Assembly: GCA_019155205.2 (NCBI GenBank)
Contig: JAHNZQ020000227.1
Coordinates: 294,053-354,235 of the forward strand
DNA: 60,183 nt
Direction of reading: 5' to 3'
DNA from: Gracilaria vermiculophylla
Taxonomy: Eukaryota > Rhodophyta > Florideophyceae > Gracilariales > Gracilariaceae
Under the pieces are notes generated by a model. It saw only the letters and a list, made by a program, of their open reading frames with translations. It was not told where the DNA came from and ran no database searches. Below are positions 23,101-41,487 of this stretch, piece after piece. Position 1 is the stretch's first letter. Each line of letters begins with the position of its first letter. The position numbers were made by a program, and so were the translations under genes.

Positions 23101-23232
23101 TTAGGCAACGGGGGAACCGGTGACGGCGCCAATGAGGTCCTTGATCTCCTGGGTAACCTGGGTGATGATGTCATTACCCATGGCGGCGGAGGCCAGAACG
23201 GCGACGACGGCGATAACGTAGGCGGTCTTCAT
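23101..23232 (-). CDS. Secreted micro-peptide, copy 1 (43 residues)
   Basis: ATG at 23232, stop TAA at 23101-23103. The first 19 residues are a signal peptide: Lys2, then a hydrophobic core (YVIAVVAVLA) and small residues (SAAMG) at the expected cleavage site. The predicted mature part is about 24 residues, beginning ND and ending in SPVA. Its core QEIKDLIGAVTG has hydrophobic residues spaced as in an amphipathic helix, with net negative charge and no cysteine. Against copy 2 the coding region has five substitutions, all synonymous, plus one in-frame codon (Asn20), while most flanking sequence cannot be aligned. That is the signature of a selected protein. A TATAAA on the minus strand lies about 120 bp upstream (23349-23354). 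Function unknown; antimicrobial, signalling or surface-active roles are guesses. Confidence 0.8.
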   Translation of the reverse strand: MKTAYVIAVVAVLASAAMGNDIITQVTQEIKDLIGAVTGSPVA

Positions 23233-23348
23233 TGCTGAGAGTGAGTGGCTTAATGAGATGCTAAAAGCTAAAGGAAACTTGGAGTTGTTGAAGAAGTTTT
23301 GGATTGCTGGTGCCTGGAAATGAATGAGATGGGGTGCTGTTTCGCCTC

Positions 23349-23354
23349 TTTATA
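23349..23354 (-). promoter_or_regulatory. TATA box of micro-peptide copy 1
   Basis: TATAAA on the minus strand, 117 bases upstream of the ATG at 23232, implying a 5' leader near 85-90 bases. At the same distance copies 2 and 3 have a weaker variant (TCTAAAAC). Confidence 0.55.
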
Positions 23355-25115
23355 GTGTTTGCTTCTCACGAGAAATGATGCCATGCTTTTTTATCCGTTA
23401 TCATGATGTGAATTGTTATGCTGTGGATGGGTTTGTCAATGGGCTCCGGTATGGCCTTGTGAATTTCTCAAACTATCGGACAGTGAAGTCAATGGCGTCC
23501 ATACTAGCCGTGGAAGTTTGAAATTATCAAATATTGTGCAAAAGCTGTGGCGCGTTTTTTGGGGCTCTGCGTGGGACAAACGATGCTGAAGTCTTGGTTT
23601 TGGCCCGTGGTTGACTGCCTTTCATTGTGCGTGTCCCCTCCCACTGTGTTCCTGCCTTTCGGAAGTACGAGTTTTCTAGACTGGTTCATGTGAGTAAGGC
23701 CCATGTAGCAGCCCGGAGAATGAGATATGTGAACACTGCCAGGACTGGACCCAGTGAGGTGTGCTGTACTTTTCGCGAGGGCACCCAGCGACCTTGGTCC
23801 ATGAGGCATTTGTGTCATGGTCATGGCCCTGTAATTTTTTGAACAATTCATGTCGGTTTGAAAGGTTTGGAGAATATTGAGGCGCAAAGGTCATCGAATC
23901 AAGGATTGCAAGGTCCATTGACACCAAAAGGCTGACGCAAGAGGTATTGCAAGAAACATGCTTCATTAGGATGGCAAGATGTTTCACTCCTTGGACGGCA
24001 GCTCTAGAATTTGCTTGGAAAGAATAGAGTTGGCGTTGGATTCTCGTGTACGGTTTGGAAGCACGTGAAAATTTTGAATCTAAAATTAAACGCGTATGCC
24101 AGTTGATGACACAATGATAATTCGAATAAAGTAGGCAAACAGAAGCCCAGGGTGTCCAATGCAAGGAGAAGGATGTCTAAGAAATGGTGGTCACGAAGAG
24201 CGCTTGCTTAATATGTTTGTGAGGCAGACCAGCCGTAGAACCCAGCTTTTACAAAAGAAGTGTTGCAAGCGCTACTACAAACGCTTTGGTGATGAGATAT
24301 CATGCAACTGCAGTAAAACAGTGGATTGCGACGCCATTGGTGTATATGTTAGTGGTTCCGAACCGTTTTCAGGGATCAGAATCGAAGTCAATGTACTTGG
24401 TGTCATTGTTTTAGGGTGCAAACCTTTGAAGGCTTGGTGTTGCAGAGTAGTATCTGGTTTTGCTGTGTTTCTTTTTGAAGGGGTTTAGATTTCAACAGTT
24501 GGAAATTGCTCCAAACTTTATGGTCGATGGAGGCACGCGTAGCAAAGAGGCTTTGACAAGGGAGATGGCACAAAAAGCGACACAGAGGCTAAGATAAGAA
24601 GCTGTTCGACCCGTTGAGAGAGGCGCCGGTTTTTGAGTGTGTATGCTGTGAAGAAGCACATTTGCGTATGCCTTTCAATTGCTATCTGACGGGTGGTCGC
24701 TTTCATTGCTAACAGCTATCACAAGAGAATAAACACAGCTTGAAACTCTGAGCCATGGTAAAAACGCTGGATACGCATCTATACAGCAGCGTGTAAACAG
24801 CTTGCCAGAAACTAGTGCTCGAGACGAAAGAGAAAGCGTCGCTTTCAATGCTGACCAAGGGGAGGCGAGAGTTCTGAGAAAAGAAGTGCGGTTTACTGTA
24901 AATGCACGTCAATTAATTAACAGAGCGCCAACCAAGGTGCGCAAGCAAGCCACTCGAAAGCAAGGCACGCAAGGAAATGACGAGAGCGATATATCGAAAA
25001 GCAAACAGCGCTGCCGCCAGACCAGCAATCTCCAAACCGTCAGCACGCAAAAGCGTGCCGACAAGCCAGCGGTGTTCTTTCCATGAGCCACAGTTAAAAT
25101 GAGTCCGGGGGAAAT

Positions 25116-25244
25116 TTAGGCAACCGGGGAACCGGTGACGGCGCCGATGAGGTCCTTGATCTCCTGGGTGACCTGGGTGATGATATCACCCATGGCGGCG
25201 GAGGCCAGCACGGCGACGACGGCGATAACGTAGGCGGTCTTCAT
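25116..25244 (-). CDS. Secreted micro-peptide, copy 2 (42 residues)
   Basis: ATG at 25244, stop TAA at 25116-25118. The protein equals copy 1 except that Asn20 is absent, so the predicted mature peptide starts directly with DIITQ. The signal peptide is the same. Relative to copy 3 there are four substitutions, all synonymous. The upstream 400 bp are almost identical to those of copy 3 because both lie in one recent duplication. The sequence 79-104 bases downstream of the stop matches the one downstream of copy 1 at 23 of 26 positions, suggesting a shared 3' UTR element. Neighbours on both sides are paralogues on the same strand. Confidence 0.8.
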   Translation of the reverse strand: MKTAYVIAVVAVLASAAMGDIITQVTQEIKDLIGAVTGSPVA

Positions 25245-25644
25245 TGCTGAGTGTGGGTTGGGTGGCTGTGAAGAACAGAGGGCTGTAGGAATGGGGTGGG
25301 GAGTGTTTTGAATAGCTGGTGGCTGGAAAAGAGTGTGGAGGCGGAGGAGCGCGGCGTTTTAGAGGCAACTCGAAGGCGCCGTCGGCGACGAACGGAGCTT
25401 GGGAGCGGGGCGCCAAACGGGCTACGAAAGGTGTGCGGTGTCGCGGCAACGCGGCGCGCGCCTCGGGCCAGACGATGGCGCGGCGCGTTGGGCGGGCCGC
25501 GGACGTATGACGCAAGTGGTCACAAGTGCATTGGGCCGCGCGAAAGGGCCAGAGGGCAGGGGCTCTAATTTGTGGCAGAAGAGTCGATACGGGGGCACGT
25601 GGAGCAGGGCGGGTGTGACTGTCAGACAAACGGCAGGTTGGTGT
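25120..25644 (-). repeat. Segmental duplication, left copy
   Basis: About 525 bp covering micro-peptide copy 2 and its upstream region. It matches 26366-26890 at a constant offset of 1246 bp with few substitutions, and diverges abruptly after 25644. Confidence 0.9.
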
Positions 25645-26361
25645 TCTAACGTGCGGGTGGGCAGGACAGTCTGGGACGTGAGGGAAGCGGCCCCCAGGAG
25701 GTGGAATCCTCTCGGGCTGCATGGAGCAAGGTTAATTTCAATCTGTTGCTCGGGTCGAAAACAAGTGGCGCCTAACTGTGATGTTGCGCGCACTTTGGCG
25801 TGTCGTTATGGAGACGACGTGCGGGGAGGAGCGACATGAACGGAGCAATTCGTTGCAACAGGTCGAAACATACAGAGCTACAGAGTTGAACAGCTGGCTC
25901 AAACCCGCAGCACGGGTTGTGCCACTCTCGAAAAGCTACGGGTGGCGCGGGGAAGAAAGGGAAGCGACGGTGGAGCAAGTGCGTTCCTCCCTAACTGTGG
26001 GAGCTACATGTGACGTACGGTGACGGACGCATGTGACGTGTGCTGAAGCGGCGTGACGTGACAAATCACATTTGCGCCGCTCACGGCGCGCGGATGTTGC
26101 AACAACGCGGGCGAGGGGCGACGGCGGAGCGACTCGCGCGAGAGATTCGGCTCTTCTTTGGGGACATTTGCTGAGGCTTTCTGTCAAGAACGCAAATCGG
26201 CGCGCAAGGTATGCGCGGCGCGACTCGCGCTTATGGAAACAGTGCGTGCTCAGCAGAGAAGCAGAACGTTTTGTTAAAAAGTTTTGTTTACAGAGTAGTA
26301 GCACAAGCTGCGACACGAATATACTGCAAAAGGAAGACGAGGAGATGGCGCGCGGAGGTGC

Positions 26362-26490
26362 TTAGGCGACGGGGGACCCGGTGACGGCGCCGATGAGGTC
26401 CTTGATCTCCTGGGTGACCTGGGTGATGATATCACCCATGGCGGCGGAGGCCAGCACGGCAACGACGGCGATAACGTAGGCGGTCTTCAT
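26362..26490 (-). CDS. Secreted micro-peptide, copy 3 (42 residues)
   Basis: ATG at 26490, stop TAA at 26362-26364. The protein is identical to copy 2, with only four silent changes. Its upstream region duplicates that of copy 2. Its downstream region (about 26020-26345) instead resembles the region downstream of copy 4 (about 27560-27850), for example the TCACATTTGCGCCGCTCACG block at 26068-26087 and its counterpart near 27611. The tandem array therefore grew by unequal crossing-over with staggered unit borders. The predicted mature peptide is 23 residues with no cysteine. Confidence 0.8.
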   Translation of the reverse strand: MKTAYVIAVVAVLASAAMGDIITQVTQEIKDLIGAVTGSPVA

Positions 26491-26890
26491 TGCTGAGTGT
26501 GGGTTGGGTGGCTGTGAAGAACAGAGGGCTGTAGGAATGGGGTGGGGAGTGTTTTGAATAGCTGGTGGCTGGAAAAGAGTGTGGAGGCGGAGGAGCGCGG
26601 CGTTTTAGAGGCAACTCGGAGGCGCCCTCGGCGACGAACGGAGCTTGGGAGCGGGGCGCCAAACGGGCTACGAAAGGCGTGCGGTGTCGCGGCGACGCGG
26701 CGCGCGCCTCGGGCCAGACGATGGCGCGGCGCGTTGGGCGGGCCGCGGACGTATGACGCAAGTGGTCACAAGTGCATTGGGCCGCGCGAAAGGGCCAGAG
26801 GGCAGGGGCTCGAATTTGTGGCAGAAGAGTCGATACGGGGGCATGTGGAGCAGGGCGGGTGTGACTGTCAGACAAACGGCAGGCTGGTGT
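26366..26890 (-). repeat. Segmental duplication, right copy
   Basis: Right copy of the same 525 bp block, containing micro-peptide copy 3 and its promoter region. The high identity of the non-coding part indicates recent duplication or gene conversion. Confidence 0.9.
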
Positions 26891-27877
26891 ACTTTCGTGT
26901 GGGTTGGCAGTTGATCAGCTGGTTGAATGGGGTGGGCGGCCGTAATGAGGTTTAGAACGGCTGGTATGGACTTGTGTATGTTGGTGAGAAGGTGTTGTGA
27001 TACGAAAGGGCGGGCAGTGTGATTTGGGAGGGCGGACATGACAGACTGGCGAGGCAACGGCTGGGCGGAGGTGGCACGTTGTTGAGATGTACGAAACTAG
27101 ATGTGTTTGAGACGACAGTTGTTGGCGTCTCTGCGGTGAAATTTGGTGGCAGAGAAAGATGAGCGGCGCGATGGCACTGGGAGAAGGGTTTTGCGGTTTG
27201 TTGCACTTGTCATAGAAAGCGCTTGAAGCTTCTTGGAAACAAGTGAAAACTGATGCTGTCTGGAAAGTTTTAAAATGTTTTGTAGAAGAACATGATTTGA
27301 ATTTGTAATGGTATATGATAGAAAACATATAGATATGCATGGTGTAGTAGAAATACAGTAGACTTGTGTAAAAAAAAAGCTTTTCGCATCGACTTGAAGA
27401 AGATTGAAAAACCCAAGTGTTCAAGATAAAAAAAAAGCGTTTAATTGAAGTGCTTCAAAGCGTCGTATAGAACAACGTACATGAGGAGTGGCGCGAGCAA
27501 CGAGAGCGAGCAAAGGAGAAGCACAGGGGTGCTTGCGTGACGGTGGGCGCTGAGGTGAGCGAGGGTGACGGGCGCGCGCGACGCGCGGTGACGCGGCGTG
27601 ACAGGGCTTGTCACATTTCCGCGGCTCACGGCGCACACGCGCTGCAACGACGCGGGCGGGGCGCAGCCGCGAGGCGCCTGGCGCGACACACTCGCCCCCC
27701 GCTTCGGCAACGTTTGCTGAAGCTGAGTGCCGCGGCGGCGATGCGGCGATGCGGCTTGTGCGTCGTCCAGGGCGAGCAACGTTTTCATATGTAAAAGATT
27801 GTTTACAGTGCACAAGCACAAGCGTCCGACGCCAACATGGCGACGAGGCGCGTCGAGGCAGTGGCGCGTGGCAGCGC

Positions 27878-28009
27878 TCAGGCGGCGCGCGACCCGGTGA
27901 CGGCGCCGATGAGGTCCTCGATCTCCTGCGTGAGCTGGGCGATGATATCATTACCCATGGCGGCGGGGGCCAGCACGGCGACGACGGCGATGACGTACGC
28001 GCTCTTCAT
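27878..28009 (-). CDS. Secreted micro-peptide, copy 4 (43 residues, divergent)
   Basis: ATG at 28009, stop TGA at 27878-27880. It retains the Asn20 of copy 1 and the same layout, with seven replacements: T3S, S15P, then in the mature part T to A, V to L, K to E, P to R and V to A. Most of these raise GC. The gene sits at the left edge of the GC-rich island. Frame length, signal peptide and the core DLIGAVTGS are kept. The K-to-E change makes the mature peptide more acidic. It is either a functional variant or a copy drifting under GC-biased mutation. Its homology to copies 1-3 ties the GC island to the surrounding chromosome. Confidence 0.75.
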   Translation of the reverse strand: MKSAYVIAVVAVLAPAAMGNDIIAQLTQEIEDLIGAVTGSRAA

Positions 28010-28262
28010 GGCGGGGCGGCGGCGAGCGGCGCGAGCGGAGGAGCTGCGCGCTGGCGCGCTGGCGGGCGTCCGAGCGGCTGCCGGCGCGGCGCGTGTTTTG
28101 TAGGCGGCGCCCCTCGCGCGTCTGCCGGCGCGCGCCGCGCCGCGCCCTGTGTAAGCGCGCTGTCAGCCGCGGCGGCGGCGGCGGCAGCAGCGGCGGCGGT
28201 GAGCAGCGCCGCGGCGCAGCGCACGTCGCGGGGCACGCGCGCGCGCGCGCGAGCGTGAGCGT

Positions 28263-28670
28263 ATGGCGGGCGCCACGCGCGCCGCGACGGCGCGCCGCAC
28301 GCGCGGCGGCGTCAGCGGCGGCGGCGGCGGCGACGGCGGCGGCAACGGCGGCGGCGACGGCGGCGGCGGCGGCGACGGCGGCGTCAGCGGCGGCGGGTGG
28401 CGCGCGCTGCGGCGCGGCGCGCGCGCGCGCGCGTGGCGGCGCGCGCGCGTGGCGGCGGCGCTGTGCGCGGCGCGCCCGCGGCGCGCCGCGCTGTCGGCGG
28501 CGCTGCTGCTGCTGGCGGCGGCGGCGGCGGCGGCGGCGCTGCTGCGGCGCCGCGCGGCGCGCGCGGGGGCGCGCGGCGCGCCGCCGCTGGAGGAGCGCTT
28601 CGACGCGCGGCGGCTGCGCGCGCTGCGCGGCTGCGGCGGCGGCGACGCGCGGCTGCTGTGCGGCGAGCTG

Positions 28671-28702
<32 letters not shown>

Positions 28703-29390
28703 GGCGACGGTGGTGCTGACGGGGGTGGCGGCGGCGGCGGCGCGCGCCGAGCAGCCGCGGCTGCACCGGCTGGACGCGGCGCTGCGCGCGCGCGGCGCGG
28801 CGCGCGCGGCGTTCGACACGTCGCTGACGGCGGCGCAGCTGCTCAACGCGACGACGCGGCGCAGCGCGGCCGCGGCGGCGCTGCGCGCGCTGGGGCGGCG
28901 GCGCGGGCTGGCGGGCGCGGCGGGCGGCGCGCACGTGCTGGGCACGGCGCTGGCGGGCGCGGCGCGGCGCGCGGCGCTGGTGCGCGGCGCGGCGCGCGAC
29001 GCGCCGTACGAGTGGCGCGCCGCGCTGCCGGGCGCGGCGCGCTGCAGGCGCCTCTTCGACGCGCGCTGCGGGCGGCTGGCCGACGCGCTCGTGCTGCTGT
29101 ACGTCGGCGGCTGCCGCCCGCTGGGCTCCGGCGACGCGTGGCTGGACGGCGACGGCGTCGGCGACGGCGGCGGCGATGGCGACGGCGACGGCGACGGCGC
29201 GGCGCTGACGGTGACGGGGCGGCGCTGCTTCCGGCGCGGGCGCAACGCGGTGGCGCGCGACCTGGCGCTGGCGTACGCGCGCGCGGCGCCGGCGGCGTGG
29301 CGACGGCGCTGGGCGCGCGCGCTGCGCGGCGCGCGCGCGCTGCGCTACGGCGTGGGCGAGCGCTGCGCCTGGCTGGCGGCCGCGCTGTGA
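28263..29390 (+). CDS. Hypothetical type II membrane protein, GC-saturated gene
   Basis: 375 residues in a single exon. Nearly every codon ends in G or C. The N-terminus is Gly/Arg/Ala-rich, partly from GGC repeats. A single membrane segment (ALSAALLLLAAAAAAAALL, residues about 77-95) follows Arg-rich sequence, suggesting a type II anchor with the C-terminus in the lumen. The lumenal part is not low complexity: AFDTSLTAAQLLNATTRR, DAPYEWRAALPGAARCRRLF, DARCGRLADALVLLYVGGC and GERCAWLAAAL, with several cysteines that may form disulfides. That makes coding likely. An NAT sequon is present. No family recognised; a Golgi enzyme or glycosyltransferase-like protein is possible but unproven. Its 3' end faces that of the EEP gene, 40 bp away. 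Confidence 0.6.
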
Positions 29391-29430
29391 GCAGCGCGCA
29401 GGGCGTGCGGTTGTTATTTTACAGCGGCGC

Positions 29431-30696
29431 TCAACGCCACGGCGGCACCATGACGCGGTCAAAGGCGACGGCGACCGGGCGGTGGTCGCTGAGCTTAAAG
29501 TCGGGCGGGAAGGTGTGCGTGGGCAGGTGCTCCGGGTAGATGCGGCTGTCGCGCGGCACGAGCGCGACCCACTGGTCGCTGTCGGCGGCGGGTTTGAGCT
29601 GCTGGAGCTCGGACGCGGCGGCGGCGGCAGCGGCAGCGGCGGCGTCGGGGTGGGCTTCGGGCGGCGGGTGCGCAGCGTCGGCGATGGCGACGGCGACGGC
29701 GACAACGTCGGGGGCGCGGCGCACAATGGAGACGGGCGACGGGGAGTTGCGCGGCTGGGCGCGGCCGTGGCGCAGAAACACATGGTCGACGGACACGTGC
29801 TGGCGGCGGTGGTTGAGGTGGGTGACGGGGGCGGCGGCGGCGGCGCCGTCGGCGCGGCGCAGCACGTGCACGCAGTCGACGAAGCGGTGGGCCAGCACGG
29901 TCTGGCACACGGGCGAGCGCAGGTCGCTGTTGAAGTCGCCCAGCAGCAGCGCGGCCAGCGGCTGGGCGCACGTCTTGGAGTACGAGTTGATAAAGGCGGT
30001 GAGGACGTTGGCCTGCATCTCGCGCAGCTTGGTGGGGATGAAGGAGTGCGGGAAGGTGAGGTGGGCGTTGACGATGAGCAGGCGCGAGCGCGGGCGGCGG
30101 GCGTCGGGCGGCACGAGCTCGGCGCTGACGGCGAGCCCGACGCGGTCGCACGGCGACGAGGACGCCGAGCGGTCCGACAGCAGAAAGGTGCGCTCGTGCG
30201 CGGCGTTGCGCAGGTGGCGCGCGTCGGACGCGACCAGCAGGGCGAGCCCGTCCTCCTTGTGCGGGCGGCGCGCGTAGAAGATGGTGTAGTGCGGGGCGAG
30301 CGCGGCCTCCAGGCGCGCCAGGAACGGCTGGTGGAACCACACCTCCTGCAGCGCGATGACGGTGGGCAGCGGGCGCAGGGCGCACAGCATGCGCAGCGTG
30401 GTGTCCAGGCGGGTGCGCCACAGGCCGTCGTGGTCGCGCTCGCGCTGGCGGCTGTCGCCGTTGAGGCGCTTGTAGGGCGGCGCCAGCAGGTTGAAGGTGA
30501 GCACGGTGAGCGGCGGCTGCGGCGGCGACGGCGGCGGCGGCGGCGGCGGCGGCGGCAGTGGCGATGTTGGCGATGTGGGCAGCGTTGGTGGTGGTGTTGG
30601 GGGTGTTGGTGGTGTTGGCGATGTGGTGTGCAGTGTTGGTGGTGTTGGAGGTGTTGATGGTGTTGGTGGTGCGGACGGAGGTGGCGCGGCGGCCAT
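29431..30696 (-). CDS. EEP-family protein (endonuclease/exonuclease/phosphatase), plant/algal type
   Basis: 421 residues from the ATG at 30696. Residues 1-62 are Pro/Thr-rich low complexity encoded by GGT/GTT repeats. The EEP fold follows: LTVLTFNLLAPPYKRLNGDS from 63; VIALQEVWF with the metal-binding Glu at 118; a GDFNSDLRS motif; LNHRRQHVSVDHVF with the catalytic Asp region; and LSDHRPV with the His at 405. This is the Mg-dependent phosphoesterase superfamily that includes CCR4-type nucleases, sphingomyelinases and AP endonucleases. The opening resembles plant EEP proteins described as calcium-binding. Substrate not deducible. An Ala/His/Pro-rich insertion lies in the C-terminal third. Third codon positions are almost all G or C. 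Longer upstream frames are GC-rich read-through without domains. Confidence 0.85.
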   Translation of the reverse strand: MAAAPPPSAPPTPSTPPTPPTLHTTSPTPPTPPTPPPTLPTSPTSPLPPPPPPPPPSPPQPPLTVLTFNLLAPPYKRLNGDSRQRERDHDGLWRTRLDTTLRMLCALRPLPTVIALQEVWFHQPFLARLEAALAPHYTIFYARRPHKEDGLALLVASDARHLRNAAHERTFLLSDRSASSSPCDRVGLAVSAELVPPDARRPRSRLLIVNAHLTFPHSFIPTKLREMQANVLTAFINSYSKTCAQPLAALLLGDFNSDLRSPVCQTVLAHRFVDCVHVLRRADGAAAAAPVTHLNHRRQHVSVDHVFLRHGRAQPRNSPSPVSIVRRAPDVVAVAVAIADAAHPPPEAHPDAAAAAAAAAASELQQLKPAADSDQWVALVPRDSRIYPEHLPTHTFPPDFKLSDHRPVAVAFDRVMVPPWR

Positions 30697-30955
30697 GGCG
30701 GGGGGCGTTATGGACAGGGGCGGGGGCGGCGACGGGTGGGGGGAGAGGGGGCTGGTTGTGTTTGTTATGTACAGCAGCGGGGGCGGCGGCGGCGGCGGCG
30801 GCGGCAGCGATGGGCGAAAAAGGGGCAGGCAGGCGGTGAGAAGGCGGGGACGGGGGGGGAGCGGAGCGGAACGGAGCGGAGCGGAGCGGAGGAAGGGGCG
30901 GGGAGGGGGAGGGGGGCGCGGCGTAGAAAGGGGGGGCGCCGAAGCGTGCGAGCAC

Positions 30956-30961
30956 TTTATA
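30956..30961 (-). promoter_or_regulatory. Possible TATA box of the EEP gene
   Basis: TATAAA on the minus strand, 260 bp upstream of the EEP start, conspicuous because the surrounding sequence is almost pure G/C. Confidence 0.4.
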
Positions 30962-31181
30962 CGGGCGGGGGGAGCGACAAGGGGGGCGTCCACGTGGGGG
31001 GCGCGCGTTGGGCGCGCGCGCTGCGCGCGCGCGCGGCGCGCGCGCGGCGGCGCGCGGCGAGGCGCGCGCGCGTTGCGACGGCGGAGAAACGCGCGGCGGC
31101 GTCCATGGCTGGGCGCAACGATGGGGCGCGGGGCGGCGGGGGGCGCGGCGGGGCGGCGCAGCGGGGGGGGGGCGTGACGGG

Positions 31182-31925
31182 TCAGCGGCGGTGCGGGCGG
31201 TGGAAGCGGGCGACGGCGGGGTCGGCGGCGAAGCCGAGCTGCGCAAAGGCGTGGGCGCGCACGATGCAGGCGTCGCAGCGCGCGCACGGGCGGCCGTCGC
31301 GCGGGCGCGGGTCGTAGCACGAGTGCGTGAGCGCGTAGTCGACGCCCAGCGCCAGGCCGGCGCGGATGATCTGCGGCTTGGACAGGTGCAGCAGCGGGGC
31401 GCGGATCTGCGGCGCGGCGCGGCGCTCGACGCCGGCGCGCGTGCCCAGGTCGGCCACGCGCTGGAAGGCGGCCAGGAAGGGGGCGCGGCAGTCGGGGTAG
31501 CCCGAGTAGTCCACGGCGGTGGCGCCGATGTAGATGGAGGCGGCGCGCAGCGACTCGGCCAGCGCCAGCGCGTGCGCCAGGAAGACGGTGTTGCGCGCCG
31601 GCACGTACGTGGGCGGGATGGCGCCGCGCATGGCGTCGGGCGCGCGGTCCTTGGGCACGGCCACGGCGCGGTGCGTGAGCGCGCTGGCGCCGAACACGGC
31701 CGCGTCGATGGCGCACTCGTGGTGGCGCGCGGCGCCCAGCGCGGCGGAGATGCGCGCCGCGGCGCGCAGCTCCAGCGCGTGGCGCTGCGCGTAGCGGAAC
31801 GACAGCGTGTGCACGCGCGCCCCGTCCGCCAGCGCCATGGCCAGCGTCGTCGCCGAGTCCAACCCGCCGGACAGCAGCACGACGGCGCGCGGCGCGGCGC
31901 CCATGGCGCGCGGCGCGACGCCCAT
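31182..31925 (-). CDS. queC: QueC-like 7-cyano-7-deazaguanine synthase
   Basis: 247 residues from the ATG at 31925, close to the usual QueC length. The PP-loop ATP-binding motif is SGGLDS at residues 19-24 in VVLLSGGLDSATT. YVPARNTVFLAHALALAE and GATAVDYSGYPDCRAPFL are family blocks. Four cysteines near the C-terminus (203, 214, 217, 220 in SCYDP...CARCDAC) match the zinc site. QueC converts 7-carboxy-7-deazaguanine with ammonia and ATP to preQ0, a precursor of queuosine and archaeosine. Most eukaryotes salvage queuine and lack this step, so the gene is unusual; a plastid-derived or transferred origin is possible. Codons are GC-saturated like its neighbours. A frame extension to 32042 runs into a tandem repeat and is probably leader, not protein; ATG 31904 is another possible start. 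Confidence 0.85.
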   Translation of the reverse strand: MGVAPRAMGAAPRAVVLLSGGLDSATTLAMALADGARVHTLSFRYAQRHALELRAAARISAALGAARHHECAIDAAVFGASALTHRAVAVPKDRAPDAMRGAIPPTYVPARNTVFLAHALALAESLRAASIYIGATAVDYSGYPDCRAPFLAAFQRVADLGTRAGVERRAAPQIRAPLLHLSKPQIIRAGLALGVDYALTHSCYDPRPRDGRPCARCDACIVRAHAFAQLGFAADPAVARFHRPHRR

Positions 31926-31964
31926 GGCGCGCGGCGCGCTGGCAGCGGCGGCGGCGGCGGCGGC

Positions 31965-32118
31965 GTGCAACCAACGCTCAACACAGCAAAGCGTTTGACG
32001 GCGGCGGCGGCGGCGGCGTGCAACCAACGCTCGACTCGGCAAAGCGTTTGACGGCGGCGGCGGCGGCGGCGTGCAACCAACGCTCGACTCGGCAAAGCGT
32101 TTGACGGCGGCGGCGCTG
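31965..32118. repeat. 53 bp tandem repeat, three units, upstream of queC
   Basis: Three copies of a unit starting GTGCAACCAACGCTC and ending in a GGC run begin at 31965, 32018 and 32071, an exact 53 bp period. The array fills the space between the queC start and the tRNA gene. Units 2 and 3 are nearly identical; unit 1 differs at a few bases. It is probably in the queC leader or promoter. Confidence 0.85.
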
Positions 32119-32147
32119 CCAAAAGAGCCGCGCCGCGCCGCGCCGCC

Positions 32148-32151
32148 AAAA
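32148..32151 (-). terminator. RNA polymerase III terminator of tRNA-Lys
   Basis: TTTT on the minus strand begins 14 bases after the last tRNA nucleotide (32165). In this extremely GC-rich setting a T run is unlikely by chance, so it supports a transcribed tRNA gene. Confidence 0.65.
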
Positions 32152-32164
32152 GTGCGCAGCGCGC

Positions 32165-32249
32165 CACCTCAGGCGGGGCTCGAACCCGCGGCCATTAGGT
32201 TAAAAGCCTAACGCTCTGAGTTGCGCCGAACCAACTGAGCTACTGAGGC
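32165..32249 (-). tRNA. tRNA-Lys(UUU) with an 11-12 nt insertion in the D-loop
   Basis: The minus strand folds as a complete cloverleaf: acceptor GCCTCAG with CTGAGGT (first pair G-U), anticodon stem TTAGG/CCTAA with loop CTTTTAA (anticodon TTT, Lys), T arm GCGGG-TTCGAGC-CCCGC, and discriminator G as in eukaryotic tRNA-Lys. Length is 85 instead of 73 because the D arm reads GCTCAGTTGGT, then an insert (TCGGCGCAACTC), then AGAGC. Removing 11-12 bases restores a standard D arm (GCTCAGTTGGTAGAGC or a TTAGAGC variant). The insert can pair with the D-loop (AGTTG with CAACT), reminiscent of splice structures of ectopic tRNA introns known in the red alga Cyanidioschyzon. There is no intron at the usual 37/38 site. 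A Pol III terminator follows. The alternative is a damaged tRNA copy, but all stems are intact. Confidence 0.85.
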
Positions 32250-32682
32250 CGTCTGCGCTGCTGCGCCCCGGGCGCGCTGCCTCGCTCCTTGCACGCTTCG
32301 CCGCTTCGCCGCTTGACTTTTGCTTGAAGCCGCCAACGTCCAAGCCGCCAACGTTCAAGCCGCCCACACCGCCGCCACCGCCCGAGTTCAACGCCGCCGC
32401 CGCCACTGCAAGCCGCCACGCGCCGACACCGCGCGCCCCGCCGCCACCGCCACTACAAGCCGCCATGTCGTCCACACCGCGCCAGCCACCACCGCCACCG
32501 CCGCCGCCGCCGTCGCCGCCGCCGCCGCCGCCGCGCCAGCCGCCGCGCCGCGCCGCCGCCTCTTGAGCGCGCCGCGCTGCGCGTCGTCGCCGCCCGCCCC
32601 CCCCCTCCCCCCCCCGCGTCGTCGCCGCCCGCCCCTGCCGCCATCCGCCGCCTGCGCCATCCGTCGCGCCCGCCGCACCGCC

Positions 32683-33756
32683 ATGTTCATCAGCGCCGCG
32701 CGCGCGCCGCTGCGCGCGCGCCTCGCCGCGCGCCGCCGCGCGCTGCCGCTGGCCGCCGCGCTCGCGCTCGCGCTGGCCGCCGCCCTCACGCTGGCGCTGG
32801 CGCCGTCGCCGCCGCCGCCGCTGCCGCCGCGCCGCGTGTTCGCCGCCGCGCGCCTGCCGCACTTTGCCGCGCGCCCGGGCCGCCTCTTCCCGCCGGGGCT
32901 GGGCGCCGCGCGCGCCGCGCACATGGTGCTGCTGGACGTGGGCGCCAACAACGGCGACGCCTACACGCTGGCCGCCTACCGCGCCGGCCACTCCGTCGTC
33001 GCCTTCGAGCCCAGCCCCGTGGTCGCCGCGCGCTTCGTGCGCCTCATGCGCCGCCACCGCGTGGCGCTGCGCGTGCACCGCCCGCGCCCCGACCACGCCG
33101 CCGCCTTCCGCTTCCGCCCCGCCGCGCCGCCGCTGCCGCCCGCGCCCAACGTCGTGCACCTCGTCGCCGCCGCCCTGTCCAACGTCACCGCCGTCGCCGC
33201 CTTGCACCAGTCGCCGTGCGCGCGCGCCGCCGCGTCGTGCGGCAAGAGCAACCGGCTGCTGCCCGCCGCCGCCCCCGCCGCCGCCGCCGCCTCGCGCGCC
33301 GCCGTGCACGTGCCCGTCTTCCGCCTGGACCACCTGTGGCTGCCGCTGCACGCGCGCCGCCTGTGGTTCATCAAGCTCGACGTGGAGGGCCTGGAGCTGC
33401 GCGTGCTGCAGGGCGCGCGCCGCCTCATCCGCCGCGCCGCCGCGCCGTACATTGCCGTGGAGTTCGCGGCGCACGGCCGCCGCGGCTGCGCGTGGGGCGT
33501 GCGCCTGCTGGACGAGCTGCGCCGCCAGCGCTACGCGTGCCACCACCTGCGCGGCTTTGGCGCGTGCCACCTGCCGCACCTGCGCTCGCCCAGCATGGCG
33601 TGCAACTTCCCGTTTGCGCTGCGCCGCCCCGCCGCCGCCCCCACCTTTGAGCAGTACGCGCGCACCTTCCAGCGCGCCGCCAACGCCAGCGCCGCCGCGC
33701 CGCCGCCGCCGCCGCGCATGGCCGACCTCATCTGCGTGCGTCACCCCGCCGCGTGA
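32683..33756 (+). CDS. FkbM-like SAM-dependent methyltransferase, type II membrane protein
   Basis: 357 residues from the ATG at 32683 (MFISAARAPLRARL). Arg-rich residues 8-20 precede a membrane segment at about 20-41, typical of Golgi type II enzymes, then a Pro-rich stem. The catalytic domain fits the FkbM family: LLDVGANNGDAYTLAA (SAM-binding motif I), VVAFEPSPVVAARF (acidic SAM-ribose residue), and WFIKLDVEGLELRVLQGARR. CGKSN and several Cys lie between. Family members O-methylate sugars and other small molecules; in an alga a cell-wall or secreted-glycan sugar is plausible (inference). The frame opens upstream to 32320, but that part is repetitive Ala/Pro coding without domain and was not used. 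Nearly all third positions are G or C. Confidence 0.8.
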   Translation: MFISAARAPLRARLAARRRALPLAAALALALAAALTLALAPSPPPPLPPRRVFAAARLPHFAARPGRLFPPGLGAARAAHMVLLDVGANNGDAYTLAAYRAGHSVVAFEPSPVVAARFVRLMRRHRVALRVHRPRPDHAAAFRFRPAAPPLPPAPNVVHLVAAALSNVTAVAALHQSPCARAAASCGKSNRLLPAAAPAAAAASRAAVHVPVFRLDHLWLPLHARRLWFIKLDVEGLELRVLQGARRLIRRAAAPYIAVEFAAHGRRGCAWGVRLLDELRRQRYACHHLRGFGACHLPHLRSPSMACNFPFALRRPAAAPTFEQYARTFQRAANASAAAPPPPPRMADLICVRHPAA

Positions 33757-34582
33757 CCGGCCCGCCCGCGCCGCACGCCGCACCCCCCCTTGCGCGCGCG
33801 GAGAAATGGGCGCCCACCCGTTTCTACTCGCGCGCGCTGCGCCCGCCGCGCGCCGCGCCGCGAGAAAATGGCGCACAACTCGTGCGCGCGCGCGCGCGCC
33901 GCCGCCTTTTCTCCGCGCGCGCCGCTTTGCGGAGGGGGGCGGTGCGCGGCGGTGCGTGGGCAGGGGGAGAGGACGTGCGGAGCGCGCGCGCGCACGGCGG
34001 CGCGCGTGGCGCGCTTGGCGCGCTTGCTGCTCGGTGCTGCGCGCTGGACGCGCCGCGCGCTTCGGGGCGCCCCGGCGCGCGCCGCCGCGGCCGCCCATTG
34101 CGCGCCCGCGCGCTGCTGCCGCTGCGCCGTCGCTGCCGCCGCGCCGCCTCGCCGTGAGGCGTCGCGTTTGCGGCAGCTTGCTGTCGGTGCGCTCCGCTAC
34201 ACGTGTCCGTGCTGTGCAAAATGAGTGCGCCACCCTGCCGGAACGCATCTCTTCGTCAACACGCTTTCCCTTTTTTTTTTTTTTATTCAACAAGAAACGC
34301 ATTACACTGCGCTGCTGCCCATGAGCAAATTGTGCGCTGCTTTACACAAGTGCACGCGCTTTTTCCTCGCTTGCAATAGCTACTGTAAAGCACACACGTG
34401 TTCCATGTGTCCGGTGCCCTGCGCAATCCTCACGGCGCTCTTTCCACACGTGGCGCAGCGCGTGACGTTCGCGCGCGTCACTCTCACACACGTGCTCGCT
34501 GCACATGCATGCACGCGCCACTCCTCGCCGCTGCAACCAAGCCGTAAATGGCGCCGCAGAATGCGGTGTAGGGCACTGTGCA
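33757..34582. other. Intergenic; right border of the GC-rich island
   Basis: Up to about 34200 the sequence is almost pure CG-rich repeats (CGCG runs) with no domain-bearing frame. Composition then falls abruptly: a run of T starts at 34269 and ordinary sequence follows until the copia LTR at 34583. No gene seen. Confidence 0.5.
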
Positions 34583-34832
34583 TGAAACTTGTGTTGCGAG
34601 TCACATGTCTGTCGAGACACATGTCTTGCGAGGATGACATTAGTCCTCCAGTTCACAATTCCCAGTTCTCAGTTCTCAGTTCCCAGTTCCCAGTTCCCAG
34701 TTCCCAGTTCCCAGTTCCCAGTTCCCAGTTCCCAGTTCCCAGTTCCCAGTTCCCAGTTCACTAGAGCTTTTATCTGTTCCGCTATCACTGCTAAATTGCC
34801 AAGTTCCTATCAGATCTCTGCCTATTGTTTCA
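34583..34832 (+). repeat. Copia 5' LTR (internally deleted)
   Basis: Starts TGAAACTTGTG and ends TTTCA. Contains a heptamer array (CCCAGTT repeats, 34649-34759). Compared with the 3' LTR it lacks about 170 bp between the CCTCC near 34648 and the array, and the array is roughly half as long. Confidence 0.8.
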
Positions 34833-40959: not shown

Positions 40960-41487
40960 TGAAACTTGTGATGCGAGACACATGTCTTTCGAGACACATG
41001 TTTTGCGTGGAGGACACTAGTCCTCCCACGGTTGGAAGTAATCTTTACCAAGTAATTGTTGCGCGAGTTTCGATGTTTGAATGTTCGAATGTTTGAATGT
41101 TTTTATATTTGTATGTTTGTATGTTTTTATGTTAGTGCGTTTATATGGTTTTTGTTTGCCTATATAAGCAAATTTTTAAGTGCTAATATAGAAAATCACA
41201 GTTCCCAGTTCACAGTTCACAATTCCCAGTTCTCAGTTCTCAGTTCCCAGTTCACAGTTCCCAGTTCCCAGTTCCCAGTTCCCAGTTCCTAGTTCCCAGT
41301 TCCCAGTTCCTAGTTCCCAGTTCCCAGTTCCCAGTTCCCAGTTCCCAGTTCCCAGTTCCCAGTTCCCAGTTCCCAGTTCACAGTTCCCAGTTCCCAATTC
41401 CCAGTTCCCAGTTCACTAGAGCTTTTATCTGTTCCACTATCACTGCTAATTTGGTAAGTTCCTATCAGATTTCTGCCTATTGTTTTA
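40960..41487 (+). repeat. Copia 3' LTR with a long heptamer array
   Basis: 528 bp. It contains (CCCAGTT)n with variants at 41197-41415 (about 30 units), twice the array of the 5' LTR. It ends TGTTTTA where the 5' LTR has TGTTTCA. Confidence 0.8.

Follow-up and report, generated by a model that had tools for sequence, protein, structure and literature searches.

What is encoded by four very short open reading frames (ORFs) that lie in tandem on the minus strand of a Gracilaria vermiculophylla contig, and what could their product do? The frames are found in a stretch of 60,183 nucleotides (GenBank assembly GCA_019155205.2, contig JAHNZQ020000227.1), hereafter the window. An earlier note on this DNA had proposed four minus-strand genes for a tiny secreted peptide, and their positions and lengths (43, 42, 42 and 43 residues) were borne out exactly:

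23101..23232, minus strand: copy 1, coding sequence (CDS) for 43 amino acids, with Asn20
25116..25244, minus strand: copy 2, CDS for 42 amino acids, a recombinant of copy-3-type and copy-1-type sequence
26362..26490, minus strand: copy 3, CDS for 42 amino acids, protein identical to copy 2
27878..28009, minus strand: copy 4, CDS for 43 amino acids, TGA stop, at the edge of a GC-rich island

Successive copies are spaced by 2015, 1246 and 1516 bp. All four encode one peptide and matched each other within their own assembly with E-values of 3e-19 to 8e-13, so the proposed tandem family is real. Copy 1 has the same protein as copies 2 and 3 plus one extra in-frame residue, Asn20. Seven amino-acid changes separate copy 4 from copy 1, two in the signal part and five in the mature part. 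The peptide core quoted in the earlier note, QEIKDLIGAVTG, is exact in copies 1-3, whereas copy 4 carries QEIEDLIGAVTG.

Differences among copies 1-3 were all synonymous: five between copies 1 and 2, seven between copies 1 and 3, and four between copies 2 and 3, with no nonsynonymous difference in any pair (counts based on ~33 synonymous and ~93 nonsynonymous sites). They are spread over codons 10 to 42; the chance of seven out of seven differences landing on synonymous sites was 9e-5. Compared with copy 4, copies 1, 2 and 3 had 10, 7 and 5 synonymous differences and 7 nonsynonymous ones each, and the ratios of nonsynonymous to synonymous change (dN/dS) for the three pairs were 0.20, 0.32 and 0.47. 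Outside the ORF, the flanks aligned poorly between copies, apart from a few shared blocks. Because the flanks have mostly diverged while the ORF stays near-identical, the frame reads as a selected gene, and the four ORFs almost certainly form a real gene family under selection.

The alternative is that these are not protein genes, being either ORFs that arose by chance or the coding end of a longer, spliced gene. The frames are very short, and the protein searches described below yielded no homologue. Copies 1-3, however, vary at synonymous sites alone along the frame, the stop codon is in register in all four copies, and TATA-like boxes and a codon bias are present, which makes this alternative highly improbable. 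A location inside a longer spliced frame, the objection that the earlier note had raised against itself, is also unlikely on the local layout: an in-frame stop lies upstream of every copy (nearest at -120, -117, -117 and -156 in copies 1-4), and no ATG occurs within 95 nt before the start of any of the four. A single-exon structure is predicted for all of them.

Codon adaptation was 0.89, 0.91, 0.88 and 0.80 in copies 1-4. The reference genes scored 0.85 (actin on contig C10), 0.73 (a phycobilisome linker on contig C7, which carries the array) and 0.75-0.77 (two histone H3 genes); outside the reference, a QueC frame of the window scored 0.75 and three transposon frames 0.61-0.62. When the same peptides were recoded 2000 times with an assumed local G+C, none of the recodings reached the scores of copies 1-3, and 0.15% reached that of copy 4. 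The third-position G+C of copy 1 was 0.80, compared to 0.43-0.45 in its flanks. Promoter-like boxes were found upstream of the genes:

23350..23355, minus strand: TATA box CTATAA of copy 1, at -123 from the ATG
25358..25364, minus strand: TATA-like box CTCTAAA of copy 2, at -120
26604..26610, minus strand: TATA-like box CTCTAAA of copy 3, at -120
28096..28102, minus strand: weak TATA-like element TACAAAA of copy 4, at -93

For comparison, CTATAA lies at -124 in the actin gene of contig C10, and TTTAAA at -149 in a second actin gene. High expression of the array genes is predicted from the TATA-like boxes, the lack of a near upstream ATG and the actin-level codon bias of copies 1-3. The dosage-dependent role suggested in the earlier note gains support from this codon bias and from the promoter-like boxes. 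A 375-codon frame (28263-29390, plus strand; third-position G+C 0.995; no Pfam match) starts 254 bp from the copy 4 start and runs in the opposite direction. A divergent promoter shared by the two is possible.

The N-terminus of the peptide resembles a signal for entry into the endoplasmic reticulum. It has a charged n-region, a hydrophobic h-region with a 12-residue mean hydropathy of up to 2.8, and small residues at -3 and -1, as judged by rule alone. Signal peptidase cleavage follows the rule of small residues at these two positions. For copy 1, the two parts of the protein are:

23176..23232, minus strand: predicted signal peptide (residues 1-19), with K2, hydrophobic residues 4-17 and A17/G19 at -3/-1; the same part is found in the other copies
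23104..23175, minus strand: predicted mature peptide (residues 20-43), with an amphipathic helix at 22-38

A cut after Gly19 fits this rule and is the one predicted; it would leave 23-24 residues. Ala16 and Ala17 are possible alternative sites, so that the mature length may range from 23 to 27. The signal-like N-terminus, the lack of cysteine and the 23-24-residue tail had been read correctly in the earlier note; its lack of a propeptide is, like the exact cleavage site, a prediction. We consider it very probable that the peptide is exported via the secretory pathway. It might instead stay uncleaved, as a membrane micropeptide anchored by its N-terminal hydrophobic stretch, the acidic helix facing the lumen. 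The stretch has ~14-16 residues and is preceded by Lys2, and signal and mature parts are equally conserved in copies 1-3. Yet the stretch is alanine-rich and short for a transmembrane helix, and the small residues at -3/-1 are of the cleavable-signal type, so that an uncleaved form appears quite improbable.

Beyond the signal, the mature part is acidic. Its net charge is about -2 in copies 1-3 (D21, E29 and D32 versus K31) and -3 in copy 4 (D21, E29, E31 and D32 versus R41). The helical moment of the 18-residue core was 0.53, with its maximum at 100 degrees, and only 0.18% of 20,000 shuffles were as high; for the copy 4 core it was 0.49 (0.28% of shuffles as high). The arc of 65 degrees to either side of the hydrophobic direction is occupied by I, V and L alone (seven residues: I22, I23, V26, I30, L33, I34 and V37), and residues 23, 26, 30, 33 and 37 sit on heptad a/d positions. 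In copy 4, V26L keeps the aliphatic face, while K31E removes the only lysine of the helix. In the full-length protein, AlphaFold (four sequences, model without Met1) placed one helix at residues 3-16 and another at 22-38. The mature part thus probably forms an anionic amphipathic α-helix, as predicted from the one-sided face and the model. The acidic amphipathic core described in the earlier note agrees with the helical moment, the I/V/L face and the negative charge.

The same properties bear on a role in host defence, in which the secreted helix would disrupt the membranes of bacteria or epiphytes. The small secreted design, the amphipathic helix and the tandem copies fit such a peptide. Against it stand the net charge of about -2 (-3 in copy 4), with a single mature lysine (copies 1-3) or arginine (copy 4), and the absence of amino-acid substitutions among copies 1-3. 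The net positive mature charge expected of a cationic antimicrobial is absent, and none of the four copies has a cysteine, in contrast to the conserved cysteines of a cysteine-stabilised, defensin-like peptide. Anionic membrane-active peptides do exist. We regard a defence role as unlikely. The defence, signalling and surface options listed in the earlier note are narrowed to this extent, the negative charge speaking against a classical cationic antimicrobial peptide.

Cecropins, which are linear helical antimicrobials, share the signal peptide, the short cysteine-free amphipathic helix and the tandem copies, but they are cationic, whereas the array peptide is anionic. Phenol-soluble modulins and other short bacterial surfactant helices resemble it in being short chains with one amphipathic helix, encoded by several gene copies, and in surface activity, which is a prediction for the array peptide. 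Modulins, compared by description only, have no signal peptide and use a dedicated exporter, whereas the array peptide has a signal-type N-terminus and a negative charge. The small exchangeable apolipoprotein apoC-I also combines a signal peptide with a short amphipathic helix and works at a lipid surface; it differs in being longer and in having lipoprotein partners, and no homology was found. Orphan small secreted peptide families are similar in having no homologue, a signal peptide and tandem duplication, but the array peptide has no cysteine scaffold or evident propeptide and consists of a single anionic helix.

Relatives of the peptide were searched for at several levels. In the assembly (44.8 Mb), the copy 2 and copy 4 proteins and the copy 2 DNA gave four matches each, at C7:317149-322064; these searches score the best candidates alone (four of four candidates for each protein), and very distant copies could escape them. 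In the window, a tblastn search for relics of further copies (E ≤ 50) gave significant E-values for the four copies alone. An origin from a transposon or dispersed repeat was dropped, as the DNA and protein searches of the assembly returned, among the candidates scored, just this one 5-kb array. Among 5.8 billion proteins, a word-based search with copy 1, which requires shared five-residue words, found no candidate sharing three words, and a search with the four-copy alignment gave 25 candidates, none at E ≤ 10. None of 360 pattern stretches in viral contigs and none of 68 in prokaryote genomes was confirmed. Profile scans with three of the four copies (copy 3 shares the copy 2 protein) found nothing above cut-off in Pfam, PHROGs and NCBIfam, the best PHROG having an E-value of 0.073. 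Copy 1 had three PDB sequence matches at E ≤ 10, the best at 0.063; they were designed helical repeats, and we took them as an effect of composition. Foldseek found no PDB match at E ≤ 10. Kinship with Inovirus coat protein B (PF05356) was rejected: residues 6-37 of copy 2 matched with an E-value of 0.0041 and 17.6 bits, below the curated cut-off of 23.5, and copies 1 and 4 were unmatched, so this hit was read as signal-peptide composition. The statement of the earlier note that no named family has such a sequence is supported by the null results in Pfam, NCBIfam, PHROGs, PDB and the protein searches.

As a control of the protein database we used the phycobilisome linker of contig C7, a single frame of 490 residues ~46 kb from the window edge. 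With the 7993 candidates sharing most words scored, it matched at least 176 proteins at E ≤ 1e-20, so Gracilaria proteins are present in the database, which does not prove that 43-residue ORFs were annotated there. The best two of the 176 matches were from Gracilaria domingensis (75% identity) and Gracilariopsis chorda (73%). Linkers of this type are found in cyanobacteria, red algae and glaucophytes. Given this distribution and the closeness of the linker to Gracilariales, contig C7 is likely red-algal and near Gracilariales, and the hint of the earlier note at a red-algal host is supported. Since Gracilaria proteins were searched and no relative appeared, the peptide family is likely lineage-specific, although short ORFs may lack annotation. 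No described secreted-peptide family of red algae was found in the inspected part of the open-licence literature results. An orphan gene would not be unusual in this genus: for four Gracilaria species, the paper on the Rhodoexplorer platform of red-algal genomes (PMC10388701) reports 408-620 species-specific orthogroups or orphan genes.

How were the copies kept alike? The array contains shared blocks of two kinds:

25116..25664, minus strand: copy 2 block (promoter, 5' untranslated region (UTR) and CDS), 97% identical to the copy 3 block
26362..26910, minus strand: copy 3 block matching copy 2, 97% over 549 bp
25942..26178, minus strand: copy 3 3' flank block, 69% identical to the copy 4 3' flank
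27488..27724, minus strand: copy 4 3' flank block, matching the copy 3 3' flank

The identity between copies 2 and 3 drops to background just past the stop codon and, at the other end, ~420 bp upstream of the ATG. In the coding frame, copy 2 agrees with copy 3 at codons 12, 20, 21, 26 and 34 and with copy 1 at codons 10, 39 and 42, and codon 41 matches neither; in its 3' flank, a 26-bp stretch is copy-1-like (88%). Copy 2 is therefore a chimera, with promoter and most of the ORF copy-3-like and the last codons and 3' flank copy-1-like. Sequence has been exchanged between the copies, as in concerted evolution. We infer an exchange by gene conversion or unequal crossing-over that had its breakpoint in the interval from codon 34 to codon 39; codon 10 would then have changed later, in copy 3 only. 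The 3' block common to copies 3 and 4 extends over 239 columns (69%, E 2e-21). It holds several GTCAC-type motifs and could be a regulatory element rather than a UTR.

Taken together, these results suggest the following scheme. Four tandem copies would supply one 42-43-residue peptide, highly expressed and exported by its signal sequence, that leaves the cell as a 23-24-residue chain. The aliphatic stripe of I22, I23, V26, I30, L33, I34 and V37 may drive self-association or attachment to lipid or an interface, and the peptide, as a self-associating helix present in quantity, would act in the wall matrix or on the cell surface. Kept alike by gene conversion, the four copies would raise the dose of a single product. 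Copy 4, having lost the only lysine of the helix, may be diverging; it could be a partner that has diverged or a copy that is drifting. What the stripe binds could be the peptide itself, lipid, polysaccharide or an air-water film. As a whole, this scheme of a highly expressed, exported tandem family acting at the surface or wall matrix as a self-associating anionic amphipathic helix is put forward tentatively, with somewhat less than even confidence, and the bulk self-associating surface role in particular is a possibility that we would not put higher.

A receptor ligand in reproduction or development is the other role that the design could serve. The size and the secretion signal would suit such a signalling peptide, and the mature sequence is unchanged in copies 1-3 except for Asn20. 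Codon bias and copy number, however, point to a bulk product, and the peptide has neither cysteines nor a homologue. Equal conservation of the signal and mature parts is little informative, as the duplicates are young. Signalling seems quite unlikely. Among the readings as antimicrobial, signalling peptide, uncleaved membrane micropeptide and bulk-secreted, self-associating surface peptide, the last is favoured.

Several points weigh against this favoured reading. The AlphaFold confidence was modest (mean predicted local distance difference test score 69.7, predicted template modelling score 0.39), and the stripe, at 2.5 heptads, has little length for building a stable coiled coil. Conservation was seen among the four copies alone, with no homologue outside. 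The charge of copy 4 differs and its mature part carries five of the seven changes, so this copy may drift or differ functionally; its promoter box is weak and lies at -93, and the upstream regions of copies 1 and 4 had no common BLAST match. The C7 linker gene itself had no TATA-like match within 220 nt upstream. The codon reference comprised four genes only, two of them on other contigs of a mixed assembly, and outside it a second actin gene scored 0.71 and two other histone genes 0.69-0.70; because such well-expressed-type genes score lower, the codon measure is a rough guide. Finally, the assembly is mixed: RuBisCO large-subunit loci lie on contigs C17, C20, C2 and C19, and the three compared (C17, C20 and C19; the C2 locus, on the other strand, was left out) differ. 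We take those on C17 and C20 to be red-algal-looking and that on C19 to be stramenopile-like. The assembly seems to mix several algae or to hold an inserted plastid, and for this reason the red-algal assignment is drawn from contig C7 alone. Two different phycobilisome gene sets were also observed in the assembly, one of them within the 5.16-Mb contig C17 at 3.0-3.18 Mb.

The surroundings of the array contain other features. A GC-rich island spans positions 28001-34000 of the window, where 2-kb windows have a G+C of 0.76-0.82, compared to 0.38-0.59 elsewhere. The following features lie in this region:

29434-30696: endonuclease/exonuclease/phosphatase frame, in the island
31185-32168: QueC frame, in the island, third-position G+C 1.00
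32163-32242: tRNA-Lys (TTT)
32317-33753: FkbM methyltransferase frame, in the island

The QueC frame holds a full QueC domain of the queuosine pathway (31185-31928, minus strand), here within a nuclear contig that is likely red-algal. Among prokaryotes, the best 80 loci were 47-60% identical to it and came from many phyla, with no single donor visible among the matches listed. Two arrays of one 7-bp unit (CCAGTTC / CAGTTCC) were found at 34648-34759 (16 copies) and 41199-41414 (31 copies). Retrotransposon frames encode an integrase (PF17921, PF00665; 9609-11273, minus strand) and a reverse transcriptase (PF07727; 39094-40278, plus strand).

For red algae, the array would be a small natural case of gene conversion. 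It may also be the first case of a secreted amphipathic peptide encoded by red-seaweed genes, with a tandemly amplified orphan family homogenised by conversion whose 24-residue anionic helix would assemble in the wall matrix or at the surface of the thallus, a counterpart of surfactant or film-forming peptides; this larger claim we regard as doubtful at present. The short length and exact conservation of the peptide allow cheap synthesis and testing. Should it prove abundant outside the cell, it would open a way into the non-polysaccharide components of the red-algal surface, with their bearing on fouling, grazing and the microbiome.

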